Shown: piece by piece, positions 16,485 to 31,991 of the stretch
Layout of the letters: every line of letters starts with the position of its first letter
Position numbering within the stretch: the first letter of the stretch is position 1
Assembly (NCBI GenBank): GCA_025358205.1
Contig: JANYKG010000063.1
Span: 1-32,534 of the forward strand
Length of the DNA: 32,534 nucleotides
Source of the DNA: Armatimonadota bacterium
Lineage (GTDB): Bacteria; Armatimonadota; UBA5829; DTJY01
Direction of reading: 5' to 3'
Notes under the pieces: model-generated
Told to the model about the DNA's origin: nothing
What the model saw: only the letters and a program-made list of their open reading frames with translations
Databases searched by the model: none
Translations under genes and position numbers: made by a program

Positions 16485-18047
16485 TTGTCGCATAAGAATC
16501 GCGCGGATAATCAGTATATCGGGAAGGTCGCCACGTCAGCGCAGATGCGTAAATTTGATCGCCGCGCGGTGGAGGAGTTCGGCATCCCCAGCCTTACGCT
16601 GATGGAAAACGCAGGACGACGGGTGGCTGAGACTGCCGCAAGCGAGTTCGGCCCACTGACCGGAAAGCGCGTGACGATACTGGCCGGTCGGGGTAACAAC
16701 GGCGGTGACGGGTTTGTTGTTGCACGGTATCTGAAGGATTCCGGGGCAAAGATCAGGGTCTTTCTCCTGGCCGCGAAGGACGATGTGAAGGGCGATGCGC
16801 GGGTCAACCTTGATAAGCTGGACCTGCCTGTGGAAGCCAATCCAGCAATGAATGAGATTCGCGCGGCGCTGGTTGATTCCGACCTTGTGATTGATGCTAT
16901 TCTCGGCACAGGCATTCGAGACGATGTTCGCGGGCTGGCTGCCGATGTGATCGAAGCCATGAACAACTCGGTCTGCAAGGTTCTGGCTGTTGACCTGCCT
17001 TCCGGGTTGGATACCGACAACGGAAGAATATGCGGAGTATGCGTCAGGGCGGACTGCACCGTTACTTTCGCTCTTCCGAAGATCGGACTATACACCTACC
17101 CAGGCGCGTCGTGCGTGGGTAAGATGATAGTGGGCGACATAGGTATCCCGCCTGCTCTCTACGAAGAAGTAAACGTGGAAGTAATCGGCGATGAATGGGT
17201 TTCGGCTCGATTGCCCGATAGATCGGCTGATTCGCACAAGGGCACGTTCGGCACGGCGCTGGTGATCGCCGGTTCATCAGGTTTCATCGGGGCTGCTGCG
17301 CTGGCATCCGAGGCGGTGTTGAGAATCGGGGCCGGGCTGTCCGTTGCAGCGGTGCCGGGGGGCCTGCAGGATGTGCTTGCGGTTAAGGTCACCGAAGTAA
17401 TGACGCGGCCTTTGCCGGAGACCGAAATGCGCGCGGTGAGTCATGCGGCATTGAACCCCGCGCTGGAGCTGTCCGCCAAGGCTGACGCCGTGGTGATTGG
17501 CTGCGGGCTGGGCGCATGGCCTGATACCGGGCGATTCGTGCGCAAGTTCCTGCGGCTGGTGGACAAGCCGACGGTCGTGGATGCTGACGCATTGAACTGC
17601 CTGTCGGACGATCCGACTCCGCTTGAGGGGAAGCACGCAGACATGGCGCTTACCCCGCACCCTGGCGAGATGGCAAGGTTGCTTGGAACGAATATTGAGC
17701 AGATACAGTCAGACAGGGTAGGGGCGGTGCGAAAAGCGGCCTCGCGCTTTGGCTCAGTGGTGGTTCTGAAGGGCGCGCATACGCTTATCGCTGAGCCGAG
17801 TGGACGGGTTTTCATCAACGTCACCGGCAACTCCGGCATGGCGACCGGCGGAACCGGCGACGTGCTGGCCGGTGCGATTGGCGGTCTGCTGGCACAGGGA
17901 CTGAGTCCGCTTGATGCGGCGGTTTGCGGGACATACATTCACGGGATGGCCGGGGACATTGCGGCCTCCAAACTGGGCGAGCCGGGTATGATAGCGGGCG
18001 ATGTGCTGCGCTATCTGCCCAAGGCGCTCAAGTCATTGACACTCTAA
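16485..18047 (+). CDS. nnr: Bifunctional NAD(P)H-hydrate epimerase / ADP-dependent dehydratase
   Basis: 520 residues that repair hydrated NADH and NADPH. Residues about 15-225 are the epimerase (YjeF_N) with GRGNNGGDGFVVARYL (69-84) and DLPSGLDTDNG. Residues about 235-515 are the ribokinase-like dehydratase with VVIGCGLG, VVDADALN, LTPHPGEMARL and the catalytic GNSGMATGGTGDVLAG. Full-length fused form as in E. coli. The start is TTG at 16485 with AGGAGAG 4-5 bases upstream. Its stop overlaps the ribosome site of the next gene, so it is coupled to the FHA cluster. Confidence 0.95.
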   Translation: MSHKNRADNQYIGKVATSAQMRKFDRRAVEEFGIPSLTLMENAGRRVAETAASEFGPLTGKRVTILAGRGNNGGDGFVVARYLKDSGAKIRVFLLAAKDDVKGDARVNLDKLDLPVEANPAMNEIRAALVDSDLVIDAILGTGIRDDVRGLAADVIEAMNNSVCKVLAVDLPSGLDTDNGRICGVCVRADCTVTFALPKIGLYTYPGASCVGKMIVGDIGIPPALYEEVNVEVIGDEWVSARLPDRSADSHKGTFGTALVIAGSSGFIGAAALASEAVLRIGAGLSVAAVPGGLQDVLAVKVTEVMTRPLPETEMRAVSHAALNPALELSAKADAVVIGCGLGAWPDTGRFVRKFLRLVDKPTVVDADALNCLSDDPTPLEGKHADMALTPHPGEMARLLGTNIEQIQSDRVGAVRKAASRFGSVVVLKGAHTLIAEPSGRVFINVTGNSGMATGGTGDVLAGAIGGLLAQGLSPLDAAVCGTYIHGMAGDIAASKLGEPGMIAGDVLRYLPKALKSLTL

Positions 18048-18059
18048 GGAGGGACAGCT

Positions 18060-19307
18060 TTGCGGATTTCGAACATCATCATTGCATTCATTCTTCTTAT
18101 CTCATCAGCCTGCGTCTACGGTGCGCAGAACGCGAAGATCACCGTGGACAAAGAAGGCAGCTACTACTACTGGTTCACCTACTCCGACATCAACGGCAAG
18201 GCTGTGACCACCACTCCGGCCCCGTTCAGCGACAAGAAGACCACGGTTGAACTACCGCTGGTGAAGGACGCCGTGCCCAAGTGCAAGCTGTTTGTGCTGA
18301 ACGAAACCACCGGCAACGAAGCTGTGCTCGACATCACGCCCAAAGCCGGAGCGGCGGTCAAGTTCGATCTGAAGGCTTCGAGTTTTGATCGAGTCCGACG
18401 CGTGGAGGTTCTGGTAACTTCTATTGCGGACAAGGCTCCGGTTGCCGCGTGCGTGGTTAAGCTGGGCGCGGGCAAGGACCAGCAGGTTGAGACGCTCGAC
18501 CCATCGGCTCTGGGCGTCGCGCGGTTTGAGGATGCGCACTCTGGTACTGTGAAGGTCAGCGTGGAGTACGGCGAAGGAAAGACCAGCAGCCAGGATGTGG
18601 ACATCCCGCTGGAGCGCGATGATCGTGTGCCAAGGATAGAGGTTCCGGTTGTCGGGCAGGTAGATACGGTGAACGCGCCGGTTTCGTCGGCCAAGACCGA
18701 GGAGAAGGCCAAGGAGCCGGTCAACAGCTTTATCAATTTCCCGATGGCCGTCGTGGGCATGGTGTTGTTCGGCTTAATCTTGTGGGGCGCGGTGCGGATG
18801 ATGAGCAATCGCGGCGCGGGGTTCAGGCAGGTAATGCAGAAGGTCGGAGTGGACCTTCCGGGCGAGCCTGAGCCGGTCGGACTGCAAGCACAGACGGCTC
18901 AGGTTGCGCCGGTTGATCCCACGGTCTGCGCGTTTTGCGGCGGGAAGAAGGATGCGGTTACCGGCACCTGTGCCTGCTCGCTGGGCGGGGCTGCGCCGAG
19001 TGCGACGCCGTCCGCGGGATCGGGTCCGAGACTGATCGCCACGCAGGGCGCATACATGGGCAGCATATTCCAGATTGACGGGACGATGGTTATCGGACGC
19101 GATGAGTCAAACCCGATCCCCCTGCCGCTGGATACCACGGTTTCGCGCAAGCACGCCGCCATTACTAATGCGGGCGGTACGGTGACCGTTGCTGATCAAG
19201 GTTCCTCAAACGGTACATTCGTCAACGGTGTGAAGATCACCGAGCAGGTGCTCAAACCCGGTGACGAGGTCCAGATCGGCAGTAGTCGGTTCAGATTCGA
19301 AGCATAG
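18060..19307 (+). CDS. Membrane-anchored FHA protein with secreted N-terminal region
   Basis: 415 residues. The first about 22 residues are a Sec signal peptide (hydrophobic IIIAFILLISSACVYG). Residues about 23-222 are an extracytoplasmic region without recognised domain. A membrane helix follows at about 225-247 (MAVVGMVLFGLILWGAV), then a cytoplasmic linker with a small Cys motif, C290-x2-C293-GGKKD-x5-C304-x-C306, and a C-terminal FHA domain (about 322-415) with VIGRDE, SRKHA and SSNGTFVNG. This places the phosphothreonine reader in the cytoplasm and a possible sensing domain outside. The TTG start at 18060 is fixed by AAGGAGGG at 18046-18053. It is the first of the three FHA genes in the cluster. 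Confidence 0.88.
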   Translation: MRISNIIIAFILLISSACVYGAQNAKITVDKEGSYYYWFTYSDINGKAVTTTPAPFSDKKTTVELPLVKDAVPKCKLFVLNETTGNEAVLDITPKAGAAVKFDLKASSFDRVRRVEVLVTSIADKAPVAACVVKLGAGKDQQVETLDPSALGVARFEDAHSGTVKVSVEYGEGKTSSQDVDIPLERDDRVPRIEVPVVGQVDTVNAPVSSAKTEEKAKEPVNSFINFPMAVVGMVLFGLILWGAVRMMSNRGAGFRQVMQKVGVDLPGEPEPVGLQAQTAQVAPVDPTVCAFCGGKKDAVTGTCACSLGGAAPSATPSAGSGPRLIATQGAYMGSIFQIDGTMVIGRDESNPIPLPLDTTVSRKHAAITNAGGTVTVADQGSSNGTFVNGVKITEQVLKPGDEVQIGSSRFRFEA

Positions 19308-19310
19308 AGA

Positions 19311-19380
19311 TGATGAGTGATGAGTGACGAGTGAACCGGAGAGGATAGGTCCGGTCACGTATCACTCATCACCTATCAGA
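19311..19380. repeat. Heptad-periodic repeat forming a long hairpin
   Basis: The gap between two FHA genes consists of ten 7-base units in one phase, beginning tgatgag, tgatgag, tgacgag, tgaaccg and ending tatcact, catcacc, tatcaga. GTGATGAGTG (19317-19326) pairs perfectly with CACTCATCAC (19363-19372), and inside it GTGAACCGG (19331-19339) pairs with CCGGTCAC (19351-19358) with one bulge. The folded RNA would separate the two FHA coding regions and end just before the ribosome site at 19384-19387. Confidence 0.75.
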
Positions 19381-19393
19381 AACGGAGTTTCCC

Positions 19394-20866
19394 TTGTCTC
19401 TTAACTCCAAAGTCATAATGAGTTTTCTTGCGGGGTTGTTCTCAGCCGCGCTCGCTTGGATCGTCATTGATTTCAATGGCATCTATAGGATGACGGAGAC
19501 ATTTGGCAGGAACCAAGCCGAGATGTTTTTCGATCAGGCAATTCTTGGCGCAATCTTCGGGCTGTTCATCGGCGTGGCAATAGCCGGCGTGAACGGCCTA
19601 AGCTCCGGCAGCGGCAAGCAGTTGCAGCGAGATGTCGGCTGGGGCGCGGTCGTCGGCGTGCTCGGCGGCATCATCGGTCTCTACATCGGCCAGATGATCT
19701 TCGGGCGGTTGTACAAGGATCCGCGTCAGGCCGGCATCTCCGCGCTCGGTCCATTCTACTTTGTCTGGGACGTGATCATCCGCGCGCTCGGCTGGGGTGT
19801 TATCGGCCTCATCGTCGGGCTAGTGCAGGGCCTTCCGTCGAAGTCACCCCAGGCCGCTCGGCACGGGGCAATCGGCGGGCTTATCGGTGGAATGCTCGGC
19901 GGCTCGCTCTTCGAGATATCGCAATATCTTATCCCGCCGGGGACCAAGAACCCGAGCGTGATCTGCCGCGGAATCGGACTCATCGTCACGGGCGCGTCCA
20001 TCGGCTTGTTCATCGGCCTGGTGGAGACGCTGCTCAAACAGGCGTGGATTCGCGTGGTTGTCGGGCGAAACGAGGGCAAGGAATACGTGGTCTCCAAGCA
20101 GCGAACCGTTATCGGGCGCGACGAACTGGCCGACATCGGGCTGTTTGGCGACCTGACGATTTCGCCGTATCATGCGGCAATAGAGGTGCAGAACGGTCGT
20201 CGAGTGCTGGTGGACGGCGGGAGTCAGATAGGCACATCGGTGAACAACCAGCGTGTAAGCGCTCAGATTTTGCGCGACGGCGATGTGATACAGATTGCGG
20301 GCATGCGGTTGGAGTTTCACGAGAAGGCGACGGCATCTCTCATCGCGCCACCTACCGATTACGCGAAACAGCAGATCAAGATTCCTGAGACCGCGGGTAT
20401 CTGCCCGTTCTGCGGCACCAAGAAGGACGCAAGCGGCGGATGCGCGTGCTCGGTGGGCAGTCAACCGCCTCAGCAGCCCGCATGGCAGCAACCGGTTATG
20501 CAGCCTACCATGCAGGCGAGTTCGCCCGGCGCGCAACCGACCATTGGGATGGCCGCCGCTCCTGCGCAGGGAAGCGGTCCCAGGCTGGTCGGCACAGGTG
20601 GGCCGTATGCAGGGCAGGTGTTTCCGCTGCAGCCCGGCGCGTCTGCTACTGTGGGTAGAGAGCCGGGTCGGCAGGTGCAGTTGCCAATGGACAGCACGGT
20701 TTCACGCCTGCACGCCAGGATAGAGAACGAAGGCGGCGCGTTTGTCGTATATGATGAAGGCAGTTCCAACGGCACCACAGTCAACGGCGCCAGGATTACC
20801 CGGCAGCAGATTTCACCAGGCGACGTGGTTGGTTTTGGAAGCAGTTCTTTCAGATTCGAGGGCTGA
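19394..20866 (+). CDS. Polytopic membrane protein with two cytoplasmic FHA domains
   Basis: 490 residues. Residues about 5-215 contain about six hydrophobic, glycine-rich segments (for example AIFGLFIGVAIAG and GGLIGGMLGGSLF), like glycine-zipper membrane domains. A first FHA domain (about 220-310) has VIGRDELAD and ISPYHAAIEV. A Cys motif CPFC...KKD...CAC follows at about 337-352, then a Gln/Pro-rich linker, and a second FHA domain (about 395-490) with TVGREPG, SRLHARIE and SSNGTTVNG. The Cys motif is the same type as in the preceding gene. The TTG start has GGAG 6 bases upstream. No enzymatic domain is visible; it looks like a membrane scaffold for phosphothreonine ligands. Confidence 0.87.
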   Translation: MSLNSKVIMSFLAGLFSAALAWIVIDFNGIYRMTETFGRNQAEMFFDQAILGAIFGLFIGVAIAGVNGLSSGSGKQLQRDVGWGAVVGVLGGIIGLYIGQMIFGRLYKDPRQAGISALGPFYFVWDVIIRALGWGVIGLIVGLVQGLPSKSPQAARHGAIGGLIGGMLGGSLFEISQYLIPPGTKNPSVICRGIGLIVTGASIGLFIGLVETLLKQAWIRVVVGRNEGKEYVVSKQRTVIGRDELADIGLFGDLTISPYHAAIEVQNGRRVLVDGGSQIGTSVNNQRVSAQILRDGDVIQIAGMRLEFHEKATASLIAPPTDYAKQQIKIPETAGICPFCGTKKDASGGCACSVGSQPPQQPAWQQPVMQPTMQASSPGAQPTIGMAAAPAQGSGPRLVGTGGPYAGQVFPLQPGASATVGREPGRQVQLPMDSTVSRLHARIENEGGAFVVYDEGSSNGTTVNGARITRQQISPGDVVGFGSSSFRFEG

Positions 20867-20900
20867 GCCGCATATCTCGCGCGCTCATCAGGAGGCTTCA

Positions 20901-22256
20901 ATGGATGATCAGACTCGCATAATCCCGCCCGGCGGCGGCGATCCCAATATGCGCACCCAGGCGATGAATCTTAACGCGACTCAGGCGATGAACGCCGACA
21001 TGAACCGCACCGCCATGGTCGGCTCGAACAAGGCTCTGGAGTTAGACTGCGTACCCGGCAACTCCTACGCGCTCTCCACGGGGCAGACGAGGGATCATGT
21101 CCTCTTCCGCCTCAGGTCCGCGCCGAACGTGATGGGCCGCCGACTTCCGCTGAATATCGCGCTGGTGATTGACCGCAGCGGGTCCATGGAAGGCGATCCG
21201 CTGAACTACGTCAAGCAGGCGTGCAGTTACGTGGTTGATCTCCTGGAGCCGAACGATATCCTCTCCGTGGTCACGTTTGAAGAGCAGGTTGACGTCCTCG
21301 TTCCCGCGCGGCGCGTGGTGAACAAGACTCTGCTGAAGGAGCACATCAATCGGCTGGAAGTGGGCAACACCACTAACCTCTACGATGGACTGGTGGTCGG
21401 CTGCCAGCAGGTGGCGTCGGTGATGGCGGACGGTTATGTGAACCGCGTGCTTCTGCTCACGGACGGCGATCCGACCGCGGGCATCAAGGATTTCAACTCG
21501 ATAGTCGGCCAGGTTGCCGAACAGAAGGGCAGGGGAATCACCATCGCGGCCCTCGGTTTCGGCCCGGACTACAACGAGGAGTTGATGGCAGGCATCGCAC
21601 GGCGAAGCGGCGGCAACTACTACTACATCGCCAGGCCGGATCTGATCCCCGAGGTCTTCCGCCGCGAACTCGAGACCATGATGACGGTCACGGCGCGCAA
21701 TCTCAAGCTGCGGCTCAATCTTTCTCGCTGGGTGCAGCTTCGGCAGGTCTACGGACGCCAGCCGTCCTTTGGTCCGAAGTACGCCGAGGTGAATCTGCAG
21801 GATATCGAGCGCGGCAGTGCGATGTCGGTGCTCTGCGAACTGGAGTTTGCGTCCAGGCCGTCGGGTACGTACCGCGTGGTGAAGGCGGAGTTGGCGTACG
21901 ACGATACTGTGACCGGGCGGAGCGAGGCGCTGACCTGTGACGTCGCGCTGGACTTCACGCCGGACGGTTCGCTTGTCGCGGCGAACGTGAGCCAGGTCGT
22001 GCAGCAGGAGATCGAGATCGCGATGGCGTCGCGGAACCTGGAGAAGACGGTGATGGGAATGAAGACCCAGCAGCTTTCCGCGATGACGGCGACGATGGAA
22101 CTGAACAAGACGATGAGCCTGCTGGTGAGTCAGGGCCGCATGGACGAGGCCGAGGATGTGCGCAAGGCGATTGACAGCATCCAGCACGGCGGCCAGGACG
22201 CGGAGAAGACGCTGATGGGCACGATCCTGAACCTTGACCAGGGCAAGAAGAAGTAG
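20901..22256 (+). CDS. VWA-domain protein with Thr-rich N-terminal tail
   Basis: 451 residues, no signal peptide or membrane helix. Residues 1-41 form a polar tail with four threonines (T5, T19, T27, T37), each followed at +3 by a hydrophobic residue. A von Willebrand A domain follows (about 84-260) with a complete MIDAS motif D91-R-S-G-S95 and the LLLTDGDPTAG loop, so it can bind a divalent metal and a protein ligand. The remaining part is beta-rich (about 265-380) and ends in a charged helical region. The frame is open from 20742 inside the previous gene, but AGGAGG at 20890-20895, 5 bases before the ATG at 20901, sets the start. Position between FHA genes suggests a cytoplasmic component of the phospho-signalling system. 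Confidence 0.9.
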   Translation: MDDQTRIIPPGGGDPNMRTQAMNLNATQAMNADMNRTAMVGSNKALELDCVPGNSYALSTGQTRDHVLFRLRSAPNVMGRRLPLNIALVIDRSGSMEGDPLNYVKQACSYVVDLLEPNDILSVVTFEEQVDVLVPARRVVNKTLLKEHINRLEVGNTTNLYDGLVVGCQQVASVMADGYVNRVLLLTDGDPTAGIKDFNSIVGQVAEQKGRGITIAALGFGPDYNEELMAGIARRSGGNYYYIARPDLIPEVFRRELETMMTVTARNLKLRLNLSRWVQLRQVYGRQPSFGPKYAEVNLQDIERGSAMSVLCELEFASRPSGTYRVVKAELAYDDTVTGRSEALTCDVALDFTPDGSLVAANVSQVVQQEIEIAMASRNLEKTVMGMKTQQLSAMTATMELNKTMSLLVSQGRMDEAEDVRKAIDSIQHGGQDAEKTLMGTILNLDQGKKK

Positions 22257-22261
22257 CGGAC

Positions 22262-22326
22262 TGATGAGTGATGAGTGACAAACGCTCTCTTCTCCCGTTA
22301 TCGGGAGAAGGGCTGGGGATGAGGGT
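22262..22326. repeat. Heptads plus palindromic repeat, left copy
   Basis: Three 7-base units (tgatgag, tgatgag, tgacaaa; 22262-22282) repeat the start of the element at 19311. They are followed by a palindrome, CTTCTCCCG (22289-22297), 4-base loop TTAT, CGGGAGAAG (22302-22310), and a G-rich tail to 22326. Read on the minus strand the unit begins ACCCTCATCCCCAGCCC and closely matches the repeat at 23132-23175, which lies in the opposite orientation. Confidence 0.7.
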
Positions 22327-22342
22327 TTGAGGAGGGTCAGCG

Positions 22343-23107
22343 ATGAGATCCAGCACATTCAGGTATGCGGTTGTCATATTGGCGATCCTGGCTGTCTGCT
22401 CAGCGCTTCCATCACTCGCAGACACCAGCGATGAGAAGCCGGTTCGCTCAGTAACGAATGTCAAGATAAAGCAAAGACCTGCCGGAGAGCCGAAGCGTGT
22501 CATTCCATTTGATGAGAATGCCGATCAGATATCGGTGGTGACCGCCGACAAGAAGCGCAGAGTGATTTCTGTTGAACTCGGTGTGACCGTTTATGAAGGC
22601 AAGCTCGTACAGAAAACTGATTCGGAGAGTACCGAGAAATGCGCATCGTGGTTCTGCTACGAACTAGAATCGAAAGACAAAGATGTTCCCTATAGTTGGC
22701 ACATGTGGGCAGACACCACTGTCGGTATCTTTGGCCACTTCAAGTGCTTCATTACTTCCGAGAAGCACAATTACCTCACCTGGGTAGGTGATCGTTATCT
22801 CTATATTACTGAGGTCTCCAAAGCCATGGTGAAGGCGAACAAGATTAAGGGGCTAGATGACCACGTCAATGGGAGGGGTGGCCCGGCATTGCAGACTGTC
22901 GATGTTTGTGGCGTCACCGGTCAGAATCCATACAAGGTATTTCTAGATGGAAATAGCTCTCCGCACTTCTTTAGCATTTACGTTACGTCCCTGGAAGACG
23001 ACGGCGAGGGCGGCCTTAGGCTTCAATTGCACGGAAAGGATCCTTCCAACGTGTACACGATAGTCACCGACAAGAAGTCCGAGTATGGCTGGCGTTTGGT
23101 GAAGTAG
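22343..23107 (+). CDS. Secreted protein of unknown function
   Basis: 254 residues. A Sec signal peptide is clear (basic start, hydrophobic AVVILAILAVCSA, likely cleavage after LADT-adjacent SLA near residue 26). The mature part has scattered aromatic residues and five cysteines and matches no family I recognise. GAGGAGGG lies 6 bases before the ATG. It interrupts an otherwise tightly packed signalling run and is flanked by inverted copies of one palindromic repeat. Its base composition differs: the line 22621-22680 has 28 G+C of 60, against 37 of 60 in the VWA gene at 21781-21840. This is compatible with insertion as a small cassette, or with a secreted ligand or sensor of the system. Confidence 0.75.
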   Translation: MRSSTFRYAVVILAILAVCSALPSLADTSDEKPVRSVTNVKIKQRPAGEPKRVIPFDENADQISVVTADKKRRVISVELGVTVYEGKLVQKTDSESTEKCASWFCYELESKDKDVPYSWHMWADTTVGIFGHFKCFITSEKHNYLTWVGDRYLYITEVSKAMVKANKIKGLDDHVNGRGGPALQTVDVCGVTGQNPYKVFLDGNSSPHFFSIYVTSLEDDGEGGLRLQLHGKDPSNVYTIVTDKKSEYGWRLVK

Positions 23108-23131
23108 ATGAGCACAGATGGAAACACGGGA

Positions 23132-23175
23132 ACCCTCACCCCCGACCCTCTCCCAATAATGGGAGAGGGAGTGAG
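23132..23175. repeat. Palindromic repeat, right copy
   Basis: CCCTCTCCCA (23146-23155), loop ATAA, TGGGAGAGGG (23160-23169) form a perfect 10-base stem. CTCAC (23135-23139) and GTGAG (23171-23175) can extend it. It matches the left copy at 22289-22326 in inverted orientation. It ends 5 bases before the ribosome site of the next gene (AGGAG at 23181-23185). Confidence 0.7.
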
Positions 23176-23193
23176 TTGTTAGGAGAACAGAAC

Positions 23194-24099
23194 ATGGACG
23201 AACAGGATAGAACAATGATGGTTCCGAGCGTTGATGCCAATGCCACGGTTATGGGCGCGAGCGTGACGTGTCCGATATGCAAGACGGAGAACGCGCCGAC
23301 TGAGAAGTACTGCGGTGACTGCGGGTTCCTGCTGTCATCCACGCCGGTCGAGGATGCGGTCGTGCCGGATGCTTCGAGCCTTGCGAAGTTGACCGATGCT
23401 TCGGGGCGCGAGTACATGCTTGCCGAGGGCGAGAATAGCGTCGGGAGAGAGGCCGCGACCGTTCTCCTGGCCGATCCGACTGTTTCTCGGAGTCACGCGA
23501 AGCTGACCATCGAGGGCGGCAAGGCATGGCTTGAGGACATGGGCAGCAGCAACGGCACCTCGGCTTCCGGCGTGATGGTGAGGCCGGGCGACAAGATCGA
23601 GGTCGCGGACGGCGCGGAACTGAAGTTCGGCTCGGCATTGTTGAAGCTGGTCTTGCCTGCCGCAGCAGCGGTCGCAGAACCTTTCGATGAGCCTGTGGAA
23701 GCCGCTGAAGTAGTGGACGAGCAGACCGACGAGCCGGAAGCCGAAACCGCTGAGGCCGAAGAAGTTGCCCTCGAGCCGCTCGTGCCGGTTGCGAAACTTA
23801 TCAGCACGAAGGATATGTCGGTCGAGTACCTCGTCATGCCGGGGTCGAATACCCTTGGGCGCAGAAGCGCGAACAGCATCGTGCTGGACGACGACCCCTA
23901 TGTCTCGGGTGCGCACGCCGAGATCATCGCCGATGACCAGGGCATCTGGCTCACCGATGTCGGCAGCACGAACGGCACTTCGCTGAACGGCGCGCTGCTG
24001 GAACCGAACGTCCGCATGGCGCTGAAGACCGGCGACGACATCGTTTTCGGCCAGACCCCGGTAAAGCTGCAGATCGCCGAAAGCCCGGCAGGAGAATAG
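23194..24099 (+). CDS. Soluble protein with zinc ribbon and two FHA domains
   Basis: 301 residues, no signal or membrane segment. Residues 1-21 form a short tail with T7 (DRTMMVP) and T18 (NATVMG). A zinc ribbon follows (CPIC ... CGDCG, about 27-46). The first FHA domain (about 70-155) has SVGREA, SRSHAKL and SSNGTSASG. An acidic Glu/Ala/Val linker (about 165-200) leads to the second FHA domain (about 205-295) with TLGRRSAN, GAHAEI and STNGTSLNG. The frame is open from a TTG at 23176, but ATG at 23194 has AGGAG 8 bases upstream. It lies 4 bases before the PP2C gene. The Thr tail resembles that of the VWA protein. Confidence 0.88.
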   Translation: MDEQDRTMMVPSVDANATVMGASVTCPICKTENAPTEKYCGDCGFLLSSTPVEDAVVPDASSLAKLTDASGREYMLAEGENSVGREAATVLLADPTVSRSHAKLTIEGGKAWLEDMGSSNGTSASGVMVRPGDKIEVADGAELKFGSALLKLVLPAAAAVAEPFDEPVEAAEVVDEQTDEPEAETAEAEEVALEPLVPVAKLISTKDMSVEYLVMPGSNTLGRRSANSIVLDDDPYVSGAHAEIIADDQGIWLTDVGSTNGTSLNGALLEPNVRMALKTGDDIVFGQTPVKLQIAESPAGE

Positions 24100-24103
24100 C
24101 GCT

Positions 24104-24988
24104 ATGGCCGAGACCAACGAAATCACCGCCAAGCTGAATAAGGGCGACCTGTCCGATGGGTGGGCCAAGCTGAAGGACCGCAAGCCGGAGCGCGTTCTGG
24201 ACGTACACATCGGCGCGCAGACCGACCTCGGGCGCGTGCGCGAGAACAACGAAGACAAGTTCGCGTTCCTGGAGCCGGAGGAGTTGGAACTGCTCGCGGT
24301 GAAGGGGCTGCTCTACGCGGTGGCGGACGGCATGGGCGGCCACTCGTCCGGCCAAATCGCGAGCGAATTGGCACTCAAGGCGCTGCTGAAGACCTATTTC
24401 GGCGACCCGAATGACGACGTTCCCGTGAGCATTACCTCCGCCCTGCGTGTGGCGAACTCATACATTTACGATGCCGGGCGCATGATACCGGAGCGCGAAG
24501 GCATGGGTACGACGTGCGTTTGCCTGGCGCTCAGGGACGACGAGGCGTTCATCGGAAACGTTGGCGACAGTCGGTGCTACCTCCTGCGTGACGGCGCACT
24601 GAGGCAGGTGACGGACGATCATTCATGGGTGGGTGAGCAGGTCCGCCGCGGGTTGTTCAGCAAAGAGGAAGCTGAGGCGTCGCCCTTCCGCAACGTCATT
24701 ACCCGGTCGCTGGGCGCGGCGCCTGACGTTGAGCCGGAAGTCTACCGCGAGGAGATCAAAGAGGACGACACGTTCGTGCTGTGCTCGGACGGTCTATCAG
24801 GGTACGTCACCGACCAGGAGATTCAAGAGATCGTGAGCGGCTCCAGCTCGGCGATGGCGGCGGTCAAGCTGGTGGAGCGCGCGAACGAGCACGGCGGCGG
24901 CGACAACGTCACCGTGATGGTCGTGGCCGTCAGAGAGATTCGCAAGCCCGGCAAGCAGAGCCGGTTCAGCAGGCTGTTCGGAAGATGA
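24104..24988 (+). CDS. PP2C-family Ser/Thr protein phosphatase
   Basis: 294 residues. All PP2C landmarks are present: RENNED51 (first metal Asp), D75-GMGG-H80, GMGTT, GNVGDSRCYLL, DDHSWV, CSDGLSGYV and the late GGGDNVTVMVV. The enzyme is a metal-dependent phosphatase and the natural antagonist of the kinase encoded next. About 30 residues precede the catalytic core, more than in minimal PP2C proteins, and a basic tail (GKQSRFSRLFGR) follows. There is no membrane segment. The ATG lies 4 bases after the previous stop and its AGGAG lies within that gene, so it is coupled to it. Confidence 0.93.
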   Translation: MAETNEITAKLNKGDLSDGWAKLKDRKPERVLDVHIGAQTDLGRVRENNEDKFAFLEPEELELLAVKGLLYAVADGMGGHSSGQIASELALKALLKTYFGDPNDDVPVSITSALRVANSYIYDAGRMIPEREGMGTTCVCLALRDDEAFIGNVGDSRCYLLRDGALRQVTDDHSWVGEQVRRGLFSKEEAEASPFRNVITRSLGAAPDVEPEVYREEIKEDDTFVLCSDGLSGYVTDQEIQEIVSGSSSAMAAVKLVERANEHGGGDNVTVMVVAVREIRKPGKQSRFSRLFGR

Positions 24989-25000
24989 TATTCCCGAAAA

Positions 25001-25035
25001 CATCCAACGTTCAACACTCAACATCCAACATCCAG
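25001..25035. repeat. Heptad-periodic repeat, five units
   Basis: Five 7-base units in one phase: catccaa, cgttcaa, cactcaa, catccaa, catccag. They fill half of the 72-base gap between the PP2C and kinase genes. The units are the complement of the ttggatg/gttgag type seen at 7392-7112... region start (7392-7119). No hairpin is formed here because only one orientation is present. Confidence 0.7.
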
Positions 25036-25060
25036 ACGAGATAGTGAATGAGGATCGGCA

Positions 25061-26692
25061 TTGTCAGCAAATACGCTCGGCAAATACCAGATAATACGCG
25101 AAATTGCGCGCAGTAACGACATCGTGTACGAGGCGGTTGATACCAGCATCAACCGTCGTGTCGCGCTGAAGGAACTGCTCGTCCCGCCGAACCTGACCGG
25201 GGTTCAGCGACGCGAACGTGTGGAGCGGTTCTACCGTGAAGCGCGCGCGGCGGGTACGCTTGCCCACCCCAACATCGTCACCATCTACGAGGCCGGCGAG
25301 GACCAGGGCAGACACTTCATTGCCATGGAGTTTTTGGAGGGGCAGACCCTGCGCGACGTGATTCAGATCGAGGGGAAGATCGCGCTGGACAAGGCGGTGA
25401 ATATCGCCAAACAGGTCTGCGCGGGGCTGGAGTATGCGCACTCCAAGAATATAATCCACCGCGACATCAAGCCGGATAACGTTCAGATACTCCCGACGGG
25501 GCTGGTCAAGATCACGGATTTCGGTATCGCCCGCATCATGGAAGAGCCAACCCTCACAGCGGACGGCCAGATTTTCGGCACCCCCAGCTACATGTCACCG
25601 GAGCAGGTGGCGGGCAAGACGCTCGATCAGCGTTCGGACCTGTTTTCGCTGGGCGTGATGTTTTTTGAGATGCTGACCGGCAACAAACCCTTTTCCGGCG
25701 ACTCGGTGGTGACCATCACCTACAACATCATGAACCAGGAGATGACACTGCCGCCGTACCTGCCGCCGTACATCGAGCGGGTGATCAGCCGCAGCCTCGC
25801 GAAAGACCCATGCCAGCGTTATTCGAGCGCGGCGGATATGGTCGCCGATCTGAACGACACTTCCTTCACCTCGTTTCCGACAGCCACGAGGCCCGATCCG
25901 TTCGGCGCGACAATCCACTCGCCCGGCCCGATGTTCGATCCGCAGGCTCCGTACCCGCAACCTCAGTATCCACAGCCGCCGCAGTCGTATCCCGACTTGC
26001 CGCCACCTCCTTTTCAGCAGCGGGTGAGCAGGCCCAGACGGCAAATGTCGGGGGACACCAAGTTTTTTCTCAAGACCATGTTCACCGTGATTATCGTATG
26101 CGCGGCGATCGTGGGGTTCATCTGGGTACTGAATGCGGGCTACCAGGGCTACATGCGGCAGGCGGGATCAGCGCAGGTTCAGGTGCATTTCGATGCCGCG
26201 AAGAAACATTTCGACCAGCAGAGCTACGCTGCCGCGATTGAGGAGTACCAGAAGGCGCTCACTATGACCAGCAATCCGGAGATGCTCAAGACCGCCAAGC
26301 AGAACATAGCGGTGTCGTACATCAACCTTGGCGTACAGAACGAAGCGGCGGGCAATCTGTCTCAGGCGACGGTCTGTTACCAGCAGGCGCTGGTCTATGC
26401 CCCTGAGTACCCGGATGCTCACCTGAGTCTCGGCAACGCGTTCTTCAAGTCGGGACGTGATGACGATGCGTTGGCCGCGTGGACGAAGGCGATGCAGTTC
26501 GGCGGTGGCGGGGCGGTCGGCATGCAGGCTCGCGAGAACGTGGCGGTGCTCTACAACAAGCGCGGAAATGATGCCTACAGCCGCAATGACGCGGGGGCTG
26601 CGGTCGAGTGGTGGCGCAAGGCGGTGGACATCGCACCCGGCACCCAGCCTGGGAACACGGCGCAGCAGAACCTGGATAAAGTGGGGGGATAG
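25061..26692 (+). CDS. Membrane Ser/Thr protein kinase with C-terminal TPR region
   Basis: 543 residues. The N-terminal kinase domain (about 8-265) has K37 (VALKEL), helix-C E59, H132-R-D134 (HRDIKPDN), D152-F-G and SPEQ, so it should be active. The glycine loop is abnormal: where GxGxxG is expected it reads IARSNDIVYEA (15-25), with no glycine. A Pro/Gln-rich juxtamembrane segment (about 275-325), a membrane helix (about 337-358) and a TPR region (about 370-535) follow, the last predicted to lie outside the cytoplasm. Threonines in the activation region (EEPTLTADG) are likely autophosphorylation sites. Start is TTG at 25061 with GAGG 7 bases upstream. It closes the signalling cluster. Confidence 0.93.
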   Translation: MSANTLGKYQIIREIARSNDIVYEAVDTSINRRVALKELLVPPNLTGVQRRERVERFYREARAAGTLAHPNIVTIYEAGEDQGRHFIAMEFLEGQTLRDVIQIEGKIALDKAVNIAKQVCAGLEYAHSKNIIHRDIKPDNVQILPTGLVKITDFGIARIMEEPTLTADGQIFGTPSYMSPEQVAGKTLDQRSDLFSLGVMFFEMLTGNKPFSGDSVVTITYNIMNQEMTLPPYLPPYIERVISRSLAKDPCQRYSSAADMVADLNDTSFTSFPTATRPDPFGATIHSPGPMFDPQAPYPQPQYPQPPQSYPDLPPPPFQQRVSRPRRQMSGDTKFFLKTMFTVIIVCAAIVGFIWVLNAGYQGYMRQAGSAQVQVHFDAAKKHFDQQSYAAAIEEYQKALTMTSNPEMLKTAKQNIAVSYINLGVQNEAAGNLSQATVCYQQALVYAPEYPDAHLSLGNAFFKSGRDDDALAAWTKAMQFGGGGAVGMQARENVAVLYNKRGNDAYSRNDAGAAVEWWRKAVDIAPGTQPGNTAQQNLDKVGG

Positions 26693-26918: not shown

Positions 26919-27034
26919 ACCGGTAAATTTACCTGGTCATATTTTTGCCAGACGTGTTGACAAAGCCCAGCATGGCCGCTAAACTAGAAAAAGTCTTCTT
27001 GTAACACCCGCAATACCCGGTGAGGTTTACCGGT
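26919..27034. promoter_or_regulatory. Paired ACCGGTAAA half-sites around the surface-gene promoter
   Basis: GGTAAATTTACC (26922-26933) is a perfect 12-base palindrome inside ACCGGTAAATTTACCTGGT. Its arm recurs inverted as TTTACCGGT at 27026-27034. The first copy lies just upstream of the -35 (26957) and the second about 35-40 bases downstream of the expected start of transcription. Such flanking sites can bind one regulator and loop the promoter. The regulator is unknown and the second copy is only a half-site. Confidence 0.5.
26957..26985 (+). promoter_or_regulatory. Promoter of the collar/CHAP surface-protein genes
   Basis: TTGACA (26957-26962, perfect) and TAAACT (26980-26985, 4 of 6) are separated by 17 bases. 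Initiation near 26993 gives a leader of about 90 bases before the ATG at 27083. The leader contains the inverted TTTACCGGT half-site. Confidence 0.65.
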
Positions 27035-27082
27035 CGTTCCACCGCATTTCGTTGTACAGATTTTCGTTCGGGAGGTCATGTC

Positions 27083-28048
27083 ATGCGTATTATCGCTATT
27101 GCAGTCACCGCCGTATTGTGTCTCCTCTTTGCTTGCTCCCTGTGTCTCGCGTCCGTTCCACCGATGATCAACTACCAGGGTAAGCTGATGCAGCCGTCAG
27201 GCGTGCCTGTACCGGATGGGACGTTCAGCATGACCTTTGCGATCTATTCTGTTCCGACCGGTGGAACTGCGCTGTGGTCCGAGACGAATCCGTCCGTTCA
27301 GGTCAAGGGAGGTTTGTTCTCAGTCTTGCTTGGCAGTGTGAATAACCTTCCCGCGAATATCTTCGATGGCCCTGACAGATGGTTCGGCGTAACCGTCGGC
27401 GCTGATCCCGAAATGACACCGAGGCAGAAGATTGCCAGTGTGGCGTTCGCGGAGAAAGCTGCTCTGGCGGATTTGGCGACCACTGTTCCGGACGGAGCGA
27501 TAACTGCCGTAAAACTAGCCCCCGATGCCGTGACGGTTGGCTCAGTTGCCGATGGCACTCTGACTGCTGCCAAATTTGCGGCTGGGGTTGCGACACCAGT
27601 AGGAACCATGTCCATGTTTGGTGGTTCCAGCGCGCCAACGGGCTGGCTGATGTGCGATGGATCAGCGGTTTCCAGAACGACCTACGCTGCCCTGTTTGCT
27701 GCTATTGGAACAGCTTTTGGAGCCGGCGATGGGTCAACTACGTTCAACCTGCCGAATCTGCAGGACGCATTCCCCATCGGTATATCGAGCACCAAGGCCT
27801 TGGGAGCAACTGGCGGAGAGGCTACTCACGTCCTTACTATTGATGAAATGCCGCCGCATATCCATAATTTCCCATATGGTATGGTGTCGTGGCCGATAGA
27901 TGTTGCAGGTTGGGGTTGGGGGGGTGGCTGGTCAAATACCGCACATCCGTATGTCAAGAATATCACGGTCTCTGGAAGTAGCGGTTCAGGCGCAGCTCAC
28001 AACAACATGCCTCCATATGTAGCAGTGGACTATATGATCAAGTATTAG
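27083..28048 (+). CDS. Secreted phage-tail-collar domain protein (paralog 1)
   Basis: 321 residues from the ATG at 27083, set by GGGAGG 7 bases upstream; the frame is open from 27020 but that adds no signal peptide. Residues 1-24 are a Sec signal peptide. Residues about 25-125 are a beta-rich N-terminal domain (INYQGKLMQPSG ... DRWFGVTVGADPEM-PRQ ... IASV), a type widespread in secreted bacterial proteins. A short linker with DGAITAVKLAPDAV-like tail-fibre repeats follows. Residues about 172-240 are a phage tail collar domain (PTGWLMCDG ... YAALFAAIGTAFG ... FNLPNLQ), and the C-terminus is Gly/Ser-rich ending in YMIKY. Collar domains in non-phage proteins (microcystin-dependent protein family) lie at the cell surface. 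Function unknown. Confidence 0.83.
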   Translation: MRIIAIAVTAVLCLLFACSLCLASVPPMINYQGKLMQPSGVPVPDGTFSMTFAIYSVPTGGTALWSETNPSVQVKGGLFSVLLGSVNNLPANIFDGPDRWFGVTVGADPEMTPRQKIASVAFAEKAALADLATTVPDGAITAVKLAPDAVTVGSVADGTLTAAKFAAGVATPVGTMSMFGGSSAPTGWLMCDGSAVSRTTYAALFAAIGTAFGAGDGSTTFNLPNLQDAFPIGISSTKALGATGGEATHVLTIDEMPPHIHNFPYGMVSWPIDVAGWGWGGGWSNTAHPYVKNITVSGSSGSGAAHNNMPPYVAVDYMIKY

Positions 28049-28069
28049 CTCGGAAGCGGAGGAACGGAA

Positions 28070-28927
28070 ATGTATGTCAAGAGAATGGCTCTGATTGCAG
28101 TTCTTGTTTGTATTGCGGTGGGTGCGGTATTTGCCGCAGTTCCTCCGATCATCAACTACCAGGGCAAGCTCATGCAGCCGTCCGGTGTGCCCGTGCCGGA
28201 CGGTACCTACAGCATGGTCTTCGCCATCTACGCCCAGCCAACCGGCGGAACGGCGCTTTGGTCTGAGACGAACTTATCGGTTCAGGTGAAAGGTGGTTTG
28301 TTCGCCACCCTCCTCGGGAGTATCAACAACCTGCCTGCGAACATCTTCGACAACCCGGACCGCTGGTTTGGAGTCAAGGTTGGCGCTGACCCCGAAATGG
28401 TTCCCAGACAGCAGATTGCCAGTGTACCCTACGCGCAGACGGCCGGAAACGGCACACCTGCAGGCGGTATCATCATGTGGTCAGGCTCTGTTGCGAGCAT
28501 TCCCGCAGGCTGGGCGCTCTGCGATGGAACGAACGGCACTCCCAATCTTCAAGACAAGTTCATCGTTGGCGCTGGAGCCGAATATGCGGTAGGCGCAACG
28601 GGCGGTGAGAAGCTCCATCAGTTGACTGTACTAGAAATGCCTTCACACACACATATTCAAGATGCGCATAACCACACCCAGGATCCACACAATCACACTT
28701 GGAATGGTGGCTTCTACCAGAAGATTCACATAATGCCCAATGCGAATTACTCAGGTGTAGGTATGAATCCAGCCAGTTGGGATGGCGGTACAGCTTTGAC
28801 TATGGATACTGCTCAGCCAGCCATACAAAACAGTGCGGCTATCAACCAGAACACAGGCGGCGACCAGCCGCACGAGAATCGCCCGCCGTACTATGCGCTC
28901 TGCTTCATCATGAAGCTGGGATATTGA
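28070..28927 (+). CDS. Secreted phage-tail-collar domain protein (paralog 2)
   Basis: 285 residues. A signal peptide (about 1-23) is followed by an N-terminal domain that aligns with paralog 1 at about 85 of 102 positions by eye. The linker is shorter, and the collar domain (from about residue 135: IMWSGSVASIPAGWALCDG ... NLQDKF) lacks the YAALF segment. A histidine-rich stretch near 190-210 (HTH, HNHT twice) could bind metal, as HxH motifs do in some phage tail fibres. The end is HENRPPYYALCFIMKLGY. GGAGG lies 8 bases before the ATG, and 21 bases separate it from paralog 1. The pair is a tandem duplication with divergent C-termini. Confidence 0.83.
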   Translation: MYVKRMALIAVLVCIAVGAVFAAVPPIINYQGKLMQPSGVPVPDGTYSMVFAIYAQPTGGTALWSETNLSVQVKGGLFATLLGSINNLPANIFDNPDRWFGVKVGADPEMVPRQQIASVPYAQTAGNGTPAGGIIMWSGSVASIPAGWALCDGTNGTPNLQDKFIVGAGAEYAVGATGGEKLHQLTVLEMPSHTHIQDAHNHTQDPHNHTWNGGFYQKIHIMPNANYSGVGMNPASWDGGTALTMDTAQPAIQNSAAINQNTGGDQPHENRPPYYALCFIMKLGY

Positions 28928-28937
28928 GGAGGGGGAG

Positions 28938-31900
28938 ATGCGCTCTTGTCTACTTCTGATGCTCGTGCTTGGGCTGGCGATGGCTGCGGGTACACCAGCA
29001 GTGAGCCAATCGAAGACGCCAGCAGAGCAGAACGGTGATAGGCCAGCACCGGTCGACGCTCCTCTGCCCATGCCATTGCCGGGCAACAGTGCAGCTTCAG
29101 ACTGCTACTCGCCCGACGATGGGCTGGCAGCGTACTGCGCGGATACCGGTGGTTCGGTCTACCACGATCCCAACTCATCCCAGCGTGGCCAATGTGTATG
29201 GTTCTGTCGGGCCGTGCGCCCCGATGCGCTTCCTAGCACGTCACCCAGCGGTTTTGCGAAGGACATGTGGAACAACGCGGTCGCTAACGGTTGGCGCACA
29301 GGAACGTCCCCCAAACCTGGCTCTGTAATGTGTTTTGACTCAGGCGGCAGCTACGGAAGTACCGGACACGTGGCGATTGTTACCACAGTCAACGGTGACG
29401 GCTCCGTCGACGTGTGGGAATCCAACGTATGCGAATCGCTCAGTGTTGGCAAGAGGTATGTATCCAACATGGGTTCTCTGCAAGGGTATTTGTACGCAGA
29501 GGACTCCGACACGCCTCCTATATTACAGTCGGGCTGCGACACACCGATAGGCAATGGTTCATCTGAATCGGGGCACTTTGTGGACTGCTACAACCGCAAC
29601 GGCGGCAAAGCGAACGTGGGATGTCCTGCTGAGTTCGGCGGAAGCAGGAATGCGCACTGGTGGGGGATCGTGGTGATACAGGACTTCGACGGAGGCTCAT
29701 TCGGAAGAGGCGCGATCATCGACAATGAGGGTGTGTCGCATAATACCGCATACTGCGTACGCGGTGCTATCTGGACCAAGTACGCTTCTATGGGAAGCAC
29801 ATCCGTGTTGGGCAGGCCAACAAGTGATGAGATGGAGGCTGCACCATCGCCTCAAGGTACTCACGGACGCTTGAGCCGCTTCGAGAATAACAACAGCATA
29901 TACTGGTGCGGAGCCTATGGGGCACATCCCACATATGGCAACATCAGGTCTACGTATGAGGCTGCAGGCGGAACGGGAAGCGCCTACGGCTTCCCAACAA
30001 GCGACCCGTATTCCTGGCACGGCGGGATCAGACAAGATTTCCAGGGCAGCTATATCTCATCCGGCGCTGACGCTTCTGCCCCGAGCGTTTCGCTGACGCC
30101 TACCGAGATCCCCGGCTGGTACACATCACCGCAGTCTGTATCGTGGAGCGTTTCCGACCCAGCTGGCCTTGATGCTGTGCAAGTCTGGTGGAACGGCGGC
30201 CCAGTGTTTTCCAATAGCCCATCAGGCAGCACTGACATGCTGGAAGGCCAGCAGGTGTTCCACGTATGGGCCAGGGACGCGTATGGAAACGCCGGCCAGA
30301 CTGACCGCACCTATCACTTGGATGCCGTATCGCCGACAGTCCTGCTGTCTGGCCCGGCGATATCCACGTGGTTCAAGACTCGGCAGTCCATCTCCTGGAC
30401 TGCGACTGATGCAACCTCCGGAGTGTCAACCACGACGCTTCAGTGGGACGCGGGAATTCCTGCAGCCGTTCAGGCGAGCGGATCAGTCCAGATATCGGAA
30501 GGCAAGCACACTGCCTCGATCATTGCCACGGACAGCGCGGGCAATCCGACCTCTGAGTCCGGCGGCCAATGGTGGATAGACACAGCCCCGCCGGTTCCGT
30601 CCGTCGCGTTAAGCCCCGCCGCTCCGAATGGTGACAACGGCTGGTACTCCAGCAATCCCACGATGTTGTGTTCCGCCACTGATCCCAACGGTGTGAATGG
30701 GTCCGGGGTAAGTGCCATCTATTACAATCTGGATGGTGGCTCAGAGACTGCGTACATGGCTCCGGTGACGATCACGGGAGACGGCATTCATACATGTTTG
30801 GTCAGAGCGACCGATGCGGCAGGCAATTCGGCTTCCACCGGCGCTCTGACGGTTAGGGTGGATACTACCGGCCCTGTGTTTGACTCCTTCTACACCGATC
30901 CCCAATCACGCAACCTTACCACTCTGGTGGCAGGATGGAACTGCTCCGACCCGGAGTCCGGCATAGCGGAGTACGAGTACTGGATAGGCACCACAGCCGG
31001 AGATGATGACGTGTTGACTGCGACTAGCACAGTCAACAACTGGGCCTATGCGATGAACCTGAACCTGATCTCCGGGCAGACGTACTACTTCACCATCCGC
31101 TCGAAGAACGCGGCAGGGCTATGGAGTGCGGCGGTTAGTTCGCAGGGAATGCAGGCACGACCGGACTGGGATACGTCACCCACCATGAACGCAGGCGGCG
31201 TGAGCGTTCCATCCGAAGCGCGGGCATCAACCAACTACAAGATCGTAGACACCATCGGGCAGTTCGTGGTAGACGGCTCATCGAGCGATAACTACGTGCT
31301 GGAGCACGGCTACTGGCATTCGGATATTGCCTTTGTAATGGTTGATGGTCCCGGTGCAGCGAAGACTCAACCTAACGGCGTTACGCTGCAGATAGGCACG
31401 ACGGAAAACCCGCTAGTGCTGACATCAAGCACATCCACGTTTGCGGACAGGTTCTACGTGGAGCAGGCGGACAGAGCGAGCGGTATAGCGGTTCAGTACG
31501 GCGCGGCGGGCGGACCGACTCTTGTGGAGGGCGATCAGGTGACGCTAGTCGGCAAGACGGATACGGTCAGCGGAGAGCGGATAATGAACTTCGTGTCGCC
31601 ACAGTGGATCGGGCATACCGAGCCTGTGAAACCCGTGTACATTAACGTGGTGAGCCTGGGCGGATGGGATGCTAATGAATATACGTTGGGTGTGCTGGAT
31701 GGGACAGGGCTGAACAACATCGGTCTGCTGGTCACCACATTTGGCGGACTGGTGAGCTACCGTGACTCGCAAGGGCGGTTCTTCTATGTGGACAACGGCG
31801 ATGGACTCTACGACGGCAGCCACTACGGCATGCGGGTGATCTGCGACGGCTTCAAGGGCGGCGGGAAGCTTGCGATGCCTGCGTATGGGAAGCATGTGAT

Positions 31901-31991
31901 GCTGACGGGCATCAGCTCGACGGCGGTTGTAAGTGGGCAGACGGTTCGAGCGATCCGCCCGCGTCGGCAGTCGGATATCATATCATGGTAG
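28938..31991 (+). CDS. Secreted multidomain CHAP / LGFP / Ig-like protein
   Basis: 1017 residues. A signal peptide (1-23) and Pro-rich spacer lead to a CHAP domain (about 75-190) with the expected triad C86 (RGQCVWFC), H144 (GHVAIV) and E161 (VWESN), usually a peptidoglycan amidase or endopeptidase. Residues about 198-375 hold LGFP-like repeats (VLGRPTSDE, YGFPTSDP), which bind cell-wall or glycan partners. Residues about 380-650 are three Ig-like domains with repeated DAxGN motifs, followed by an FN3-like domain to about 740. Residues about 745-1017 are a module with NYKIVDTIGQFVV and EHGYWHSDI, then a possible OB-fold domain. That module recurs in the next gene. It begins 10 bases after paralog 2, with a strong GGAGGGGG. 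Confidence 0.86.
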   Translation: MRSCLLLMLVLGLAMAAGTPAVSQSKTPAEQNGDRPAPVDAPLPMPLPGNSAASDCYSPDDGLAAYCADTGGSVYHDPNSSQRGQCVWFCRAVRPDALPSTSPSGFAKDMWNNAVANGWRTGTSPKPGSVMCFDSGGSYGSTGHVAIVTTVNGDGSVDVWESNVCESLSVGKRYVSNMGSLQGYLYAEDSDTPPILQSGCDTPIGNGSSESGHFVDCYNRNGGKANVGCPAEFGGSRNAHWWGIVVIQDFDGGSFGRGAIIDNEGVSHNTAYCVRGAIWTKYASMGSTSVLGRPTSDEMEAAPSPQGTHGRLSRFENNNSIYWCGAYGAHPTYGNIRSTYEAAGGTGSAYGFPTSDPYSWHGGIRQDFQGSYISSGADASAPSVSLTPTEIPGWYTSPQSVSWSVSDPAGLDAVQVWWNGGPVFSNSPSGSTDMLEGQQVFHVWARDAYGNAGQTDRTYHLDAVSPTVLLSGPAISTWFKTRQSISWTATDATSGVSTTTLQWDAGIPAAVQASGSVQISEGKHTASIIATDSAGNPTSESGGQWWIDTAPPVPSVALSPAAPNGDNGWYSSNPTMLCSATDPNGVNGSGVSAIYYNLDGGSETAYMAPVTITGDGIHTCLVRATDAAGNSASTGALTVRVDTTGPVFDSFYTDPQSRNLTTLVAGWNCSDPESGIAEYEYWIGTTAGDDDVLTATSTVNNWAYAMNLNLISGQTYYFTIRSKNAAGLWSAAVSSQGMQARPDWDTSPTMNAGGVSVPSEARASTNYKIVDTIGQFVVDGSSSDNYVLEHGYWHSDIAFVMVDGPGAAKTQPNGVTLQIGTTENPLVLTSSTSTFADRFYVEQADRASGIAVQYGAAGGPTLVEGDQVTLVGKTDTVSGERIMNFVSPQWIGHTEPVKPVYINVVSLGGWDANEYTLGVLDGTGLNNIGLLVTTFGGLVSYRDSQGRFFYVDNGDGLYDGSHYGMRVICDGFKGGGKLAMPAYGKHVMLTGISSTAVVSGQTVRAIRPRRQSDIISW

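Follow-up and report, generated by a model that had tools for sequence, protein, structure and literature searches.

A conserved gene block in Armatimonadota probably encodes a phosphothreonine switch of the ArnA–ArnB kind

The window analysed here is a 32,534-nucleotide stretch from an Armatimonadota bacterium (assembly GCA_025358205.1, contig JANYKG010000063.1). Six-frame open reading frames together with Pfam and NCBIfam scans placed six gene families within positions 18060–26692 in the order A–B–C–E–F–G, all on the + strand, to which the gene and domain coordinates below refer. The initial annotation had proposed these families in this order, and they were recovered at the same coordinates; its inventory, however, missed the secreted gene D (22343–23107) and the presence of two FHA domains in B. 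The block encodes five FHA domains, of which four are canonical or nearly so, since the first FHA domain of B lacks the phosphothreonine (pThr)-binding Asn. The whole source genome encodes four kinases and seven FHA domains, the other two of the latter being located on contig C12.

Gene A (18060–19307) encodes a signal peptide, an all-β ectodomain (about 18123–18725), a single transmembrane (TM) segment (about 18726–18809), a CxxC..CxC Cys knuckle (18927–18977) and a canonical FHA domain (19089–19280). The ectodomain model is all-β and yielded no informative PDB match, as the listed matches fall almost entirely on the FHA domain of A; its match to bMG3 in the Pfam/NCBIfam scans was weak and below the cut-off. 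Gene B (19394–20866) comprises a glycine-rich multi-TM membrane region (19394–20038), the degenerate FHA1 (20105–20296), a Cys knuckle (20402–20449) and a canonical FHA2 (20648–20839). At the position of the Asn missing from B FHA1 in the window, orthologues mostly carry Ile, Leu or Ala. The binding residues are invariant in the FHA domain of A, in B FHA2 and in the first FHA domain of E, and essentially kept in the second FHA domain of E, which retains S, H and N and has G in place of R. Directly upstream lies nnrD (16485–18047, + strand), a housekeeping NAD(P)H-hydrate epimerase/dehydratase gene that is a conserved neighbour of A and B and is possibly on one transcript with them.

Gene C (20901–22256) encodes an ArnB-like VWA protein. 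Its start is probably the ATG at 20901, which is preceded by GGAGG; the listed TTG at 20742 is less likely. The AlphaFold model (pLDDT 90.2) consists of a 43-residue disordered N-terminal tail, a β-sandwich split by the vWA domain, and four C-terminal helices. In the PDB, the model best matches ArnB as part of the ArnAB complex (8S05, chains A/B; E 3.6e-26, TM 0.77 on target), followed by 4FX5, a vWA protein from Catenulispora, and 5A8J, the ArnB paralogue ArnE; the tripartite order is common to 8S05 and 5A8J, and both entries were also found by the sequence profile of C alone. Sequence identity between C and ArnB is 18%, and Pfam ArnB_C matched none of 54 C members at E values up to 1.

Two regions of C are marked by conserved or recurrent threonines. 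The disordered tail (residues 1–43, 20901–21029) contains the motifs TRII, RTQAM, ATQAM and NRTAM. Across the family, the tail repeat has the consensus DPN[RK]TQM, with 221 motif matches against 57 expected and a maximum of 81 in 500 shuffles. Thr outnumbers Ser in the tail by 2.4:1, as expected of FHA ligands, because FHA domains prefer pThr over pSer (PMC6509490). In the C-terminal four-helix bundle (21993–22241), T383, T404 and T437 (LEKTVMG, NKT and AEKTLMG, respectively) are near-invariant, being conserved in 54/54, 53/54 and 53/54 members and almost never replaced by Ser.

The VWA protein had been suggested to be an adhesive or surface assembly part. Its MIDAS residues are intact (DRSGS..T..D), and VWA pilus adhesins appear lower in its fold list, but no signal peptide or TM segment was found in C, its best folds are the cytoplasmic ArnB, ArnE and Sec23/24, and its threonine motifs fit cytoplasmic FHA domains, leaving an adhesive role very improbable. 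Since C combines an ArnB fold with the lack of export signals, it is more likely a phospho-switched hub, and C is probably the target shared by the kinase, the phosphatase and the three FHA-reading proteins. Sec23/24 rank after ArnB, 4FX5 and ArnE among the fold matches, with E about 1e-13. It is conceivable, though distinctly unlikely, that C represents a bacterial Sec23/24-core-like phospho-switched scaffold that the FHA receptors A and B recruit to the inner membrane, under the control of its own kinase and phosphatase. If true, bacteria would have a membrane-bound assembly built from an ArnB/Sec23-24-core protein.

Gene E (23194–24099) encodes a soluble protein, a candidate ArnA-like partner with a Thr-rich N-terminal tail, a zinc ribbon (CxxC-x10-CxxC, 23269–23322) and two FHA domains (FHA1, 23437–23631; FHA2, 23851–24051). 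The CxxC-x10-CxxC span is identical in 57/57 parsed E ribbons, and its cysteine spacing is exactly that of ArnA, whose ribbon cysteines are C21, C24, C35 and C38 (PMC12852372). The ArnA FHA domain is among the PDB matches of the E profile but is not the best, and E is not linked to ArnA by FHA sequence alone, because GarA and OdhI outscore it. In some families, E orthologues carry an N-terminal DnaJ domain, forming a fusion of J-domain, ribbon and double FHA (L055, 8338–9579, Pfam E 6e-12; L059, 11357–12352, 4e-9).

C and E are gained or lost together across Armatimonadota. A clear C orthologue is present in 43/61 genomes, with only distant VWA matches in two more; both genes occur in 43 genomes, C alone in none, E alone in one (85% complete) and neither in 17 (Fisher p 3e-14, a value inflated by genome relatedness). 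Losses are scattered and extend to one genome from the family to which the window belongs. The membrane part of B follows much the same presence profile as C, except that a small number of weak matches came from genomes lacking C; its two misses (G038 and G051) were recovered by profile.

This co-inheritance bears on whether E might instead be an autoinhibited switch of the GarA/OdhI kind, in which the kinase phosphorylates the N-terminal Thr tail of E, the tail folds onto its own FHA domain, and C is one of several clients. E shares with GarA and OdhI a Thr tail ahead of the FHA domain, its tail contains 116 motif matches against 51 expected, GarA, OdhI and FhaA are the top-scoring matches of its FHA domains, and, according to PDB titles, structures exist of DgcB FHA domains together with the phosphorylated tail of the same protein. 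However, threonine conservation is highest in C rather than E, C and E are inherited together, and no link to 2-oxoglutarate dehydrogenase was seen; moreover, GarA and OdhI have a single FHA domain and neither a ribbon nor a VWA partner, whereas E combines a pair of FHA domains with a zinc ribbon. We therefore regard such autoinhibition as unlikely.

Gene F (24104–24988) encodes a PP2C Ser/Thr phosphatase of the Stp1 type, scoring above the NCBIfam Stp1 cut-off, with intact motifs DGMGG, GDSR, SDG and GGGDN. Gene G (25061–26692) encodes an N-terminal Ser/Thr kinase domain with intact VALK, HRDIKPDN and DFG motifs, a TM segment (about 26069–26134) and a TPR region (about 26207–26689); the positive-inside rule places the kinase in the cytoplasm and the TPR region outside. 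The external TPR region of G and the ectodomain of A support the earlier proposal of signal input from outside, and its placement of the FHA readers on the inside is likewise supported.

Kinase, PP2C and FHA genes also occur together in the actinobacterial PstP-RodA-PbpA-PknA/B-FhaA/B operon, and the block could in principle be a generic cluster of that kind, tied to cell-wall synthesis. The enzyme families are shared, with Stp1- and PknB-type matches, but the actinobacterial operon has no VWA or ribbon-FHA protein, and the source genome holds such an operon separately on contig C12 (L069, 5805–13313), with a rodA–pbp fusion, an FhaA-like double-FHA protein, a PP2C and a kinase, all named by eye from their sequences. 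Neither rodA nor pbp is linked to kinase G, and each of the 57 C-linked kinases resembles G more closely than the C12 kinase. A cell-wall role of this type thus has a very slim probability. The absence of secretion and cell-wall genes from the block, as described in the initial annotation, agrees with the location of the C12 operon and with the lack of the sheath gene VipB from the genome, on which ground we also rejected a type VI secretion PpkA/PppA/Fha system.

The six-gene block is real and old: its order is far beyond chance and recurs in many Armatimonadota families, bearing out, within this phylum, the expectation of a neighbourhood conserved beyond the source genome. Most loci from the class to which the window belongs, as well as loci of the Chthonomonadaceae type, show the complete arrangement nnrD-A-B-C-E-F-G. 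In other Armatimonadota families, nnrD-A-B lies apart from C-E-F-G, with A and B remaining paired behind nnrD. Fimbriimonadia-type loci keep nnrD-A-B-C together, with E-F elsewhere in both genomes checked (G038 and G051). Among named loci, E adjoins C in 34/60 of those with sufficient room downstream, and A and B are present in 38/62 of those with sufficient room upstream. In one genus, B and C are separated by an inserted methyltransferase-like gene, recognised by eye from its sequence (L032, 9249–10019). Our literature search found no paper on this gene cluster in Armatimonadota.

We also compared the block with the TerY-P triad, which consists of a TerY-like VWA protein, a PP2C-like enzyme and a kinase with a C-terminal zinc ribbon (PMC11090510). 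The same three families occur here in one operon, and the block could be a stress or anti-phage triad of this type with FHA proteins added. The kinase architecture differs, however, in that G has a TM segment and TPR region rather than a zinc ribbon or OB fold; TerD is absent from the genome, the block contains no nuclease, helicase or Ter gene, and its inheritance is single-copy and phylum-wide, not patchy as in defence systems. With PADLOC returning only generic kinase and PP2C models, a defence system was rejected and a TerY-P-like origin appears very improbable. No MoxR-type AAA+ gene, as in the vWA-MoxR ternary system (VMAP), was found among the operon members.

In a genome scan, the best 80 of 419 loci all belong, judging by their titles and relatedness, to Armatimonadota. 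One contig titled as a Methanoregulaceae archaeon (L132) carries an Armatimonadota-type C gene and is probably mislabelled or from a mixed bin. Five plasmid VWA relatives from Deinococcota and Cyanobacteriota were inspected, and none had FHA, kinase or PP2C genes alongside. On four of the five plasmids (L172, L173, L174 and L175), a MerR regulator directly precedes the ArnB-like VWA gene, and the pair possibly constitutes a two-gene module.

Gene D, located on the + strand between C and E, encodes a secreted orphan of no family. Its GC content is 0.50, compared with about 0.60 in the operon, it is bordered by two REP-like palindromes (CTTCTCCCGTTATCGGGAGAAG and CCCTCTCCCAATAATGGGAGAGGG), and it was found in none of the relatives fetched. 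D is probably a recent insertion outside the system, and given its GC content and its absence from these relatives it was rejected as a member. Downstream of G, positions 27020–31991 encode a CHAP/LGFP/Ig-like protein and two secreted proteins that carry phage tail-collar domains, none of which is conserved beside the operon in relatives.

The closest parallel to the block is the ArnA-ArnB-ArnC/ArnD-PP2A module of Sulfolobus acidocaldarius, in which ArnB, like C, combines a split β-sandwich, a vWA domain and a four-helix bundle with Thr sites (PMC6509490, PMC12852372). There, the ArnA ribbon loosely holds unphosphorylated ArnB; ArnC phosphorylates threonines of the ArnB helix bundle, whereupon the ArnA FHA domain binds tightly, and PP2A reverses this state (PMC12852372). 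The same 2026 structural paper reports that, in other settings, the ArnB blueprint mostly has no connection with multi-phosphorylation (PMC12852372). ArnA resembles E in its N-terminal four-Cys ribbon of identical spacing, followed by an FHA domain toward the C-terminus, and both systems include a Ser/Thr kinase and a phosphatase. The differences are nevertheless considerable. The block is bacterial, E has two FHA domains where ArnA has one, C carries an N-terminal Thr-array tail that ArnB does not, the phosphatase is a PP2C instead of PP2A, G is a transmembrane kinase with an external TPR region, unlike the Arn kinases, and the membrane FHA proteins A and B are additions. The tripartite fold does not by itself identify a protein as ArnB, because the bacterial 4FX5, from Catenulispora acidiphila, has the same fold and fits C about as well (TM 0.70 on query). 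To our knowledge, neither a function nor an FHA or kinase context is known for 4FX5. With this equal fit, the 18% identity and the lack of an ArnB_C match, our claim is that the block works like ArnAB, not that C is an ArnB orthologue.

Because the block has a counterpart for each Arn part, we infer the same type of switch: on sequence, models and analogy, it is probably a dedicated phosphothreonine switch of the ArnA–ArnB kind (probability about 0.7), in line with the dedicated phosphothreonine system that the initial annotation had proposed. In the mechanism we envisage, kinase G would use its external TPR region to sense the envelope state and would phosphorylate threonines of C, namely the DPN[RK]TQM tail array and T383, T404 and T437 of the bundle. 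The E ribbon would dock loosely on C, and the E FHA domains would bind tightly once C is phosphorylated. A and B may bind the same kind of phosphothreonine and would thereby bring the C–E complex to the membrane or transmit a signal through it, and the PP2C F would reverse the phosphorylated state. Further points against this ArnAB-type switch are that the TQM motifs could serve a purpose other than FHA binding and that no kinase adjoins C or E in Fimbriimonadia.

The archaellum, the output of the Arn module, cannot apply as such to a bacterial block; our best guess is that the switch controls some process at the surface or in the envelope. Motility is unsupported by presence patterns, as PilT is present in 61/61 genomes and flagellin is weakly associated with the module (both, module only, flagellin only and neither in 31, 12, 6 and 12 of the 61 genomes; p 0.009, uncorrected for relatedness), 12 genomes carrying the module but no flagellin.

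The phosphorylation-driven ArnAB switch has so far been described from Sulfolobales. By analogy, a switch of this type, with membrane-anchored readers added, probably also operates in bacteria, the new element relative to ArnAB being, as we infer, the two membrane-anchored FHA receptors. The whole putative circuit of hub, ribbon-FHA reader, kinase, phosphatase and two membrane FHA receptors is contained in one or two operons of a poorly studied phylum, and with six genes the relations between kinase, readers and hub become directly testable. The finding is also relevant to how ArnB/Sec23-24-core proteins and FHA signalling arose.
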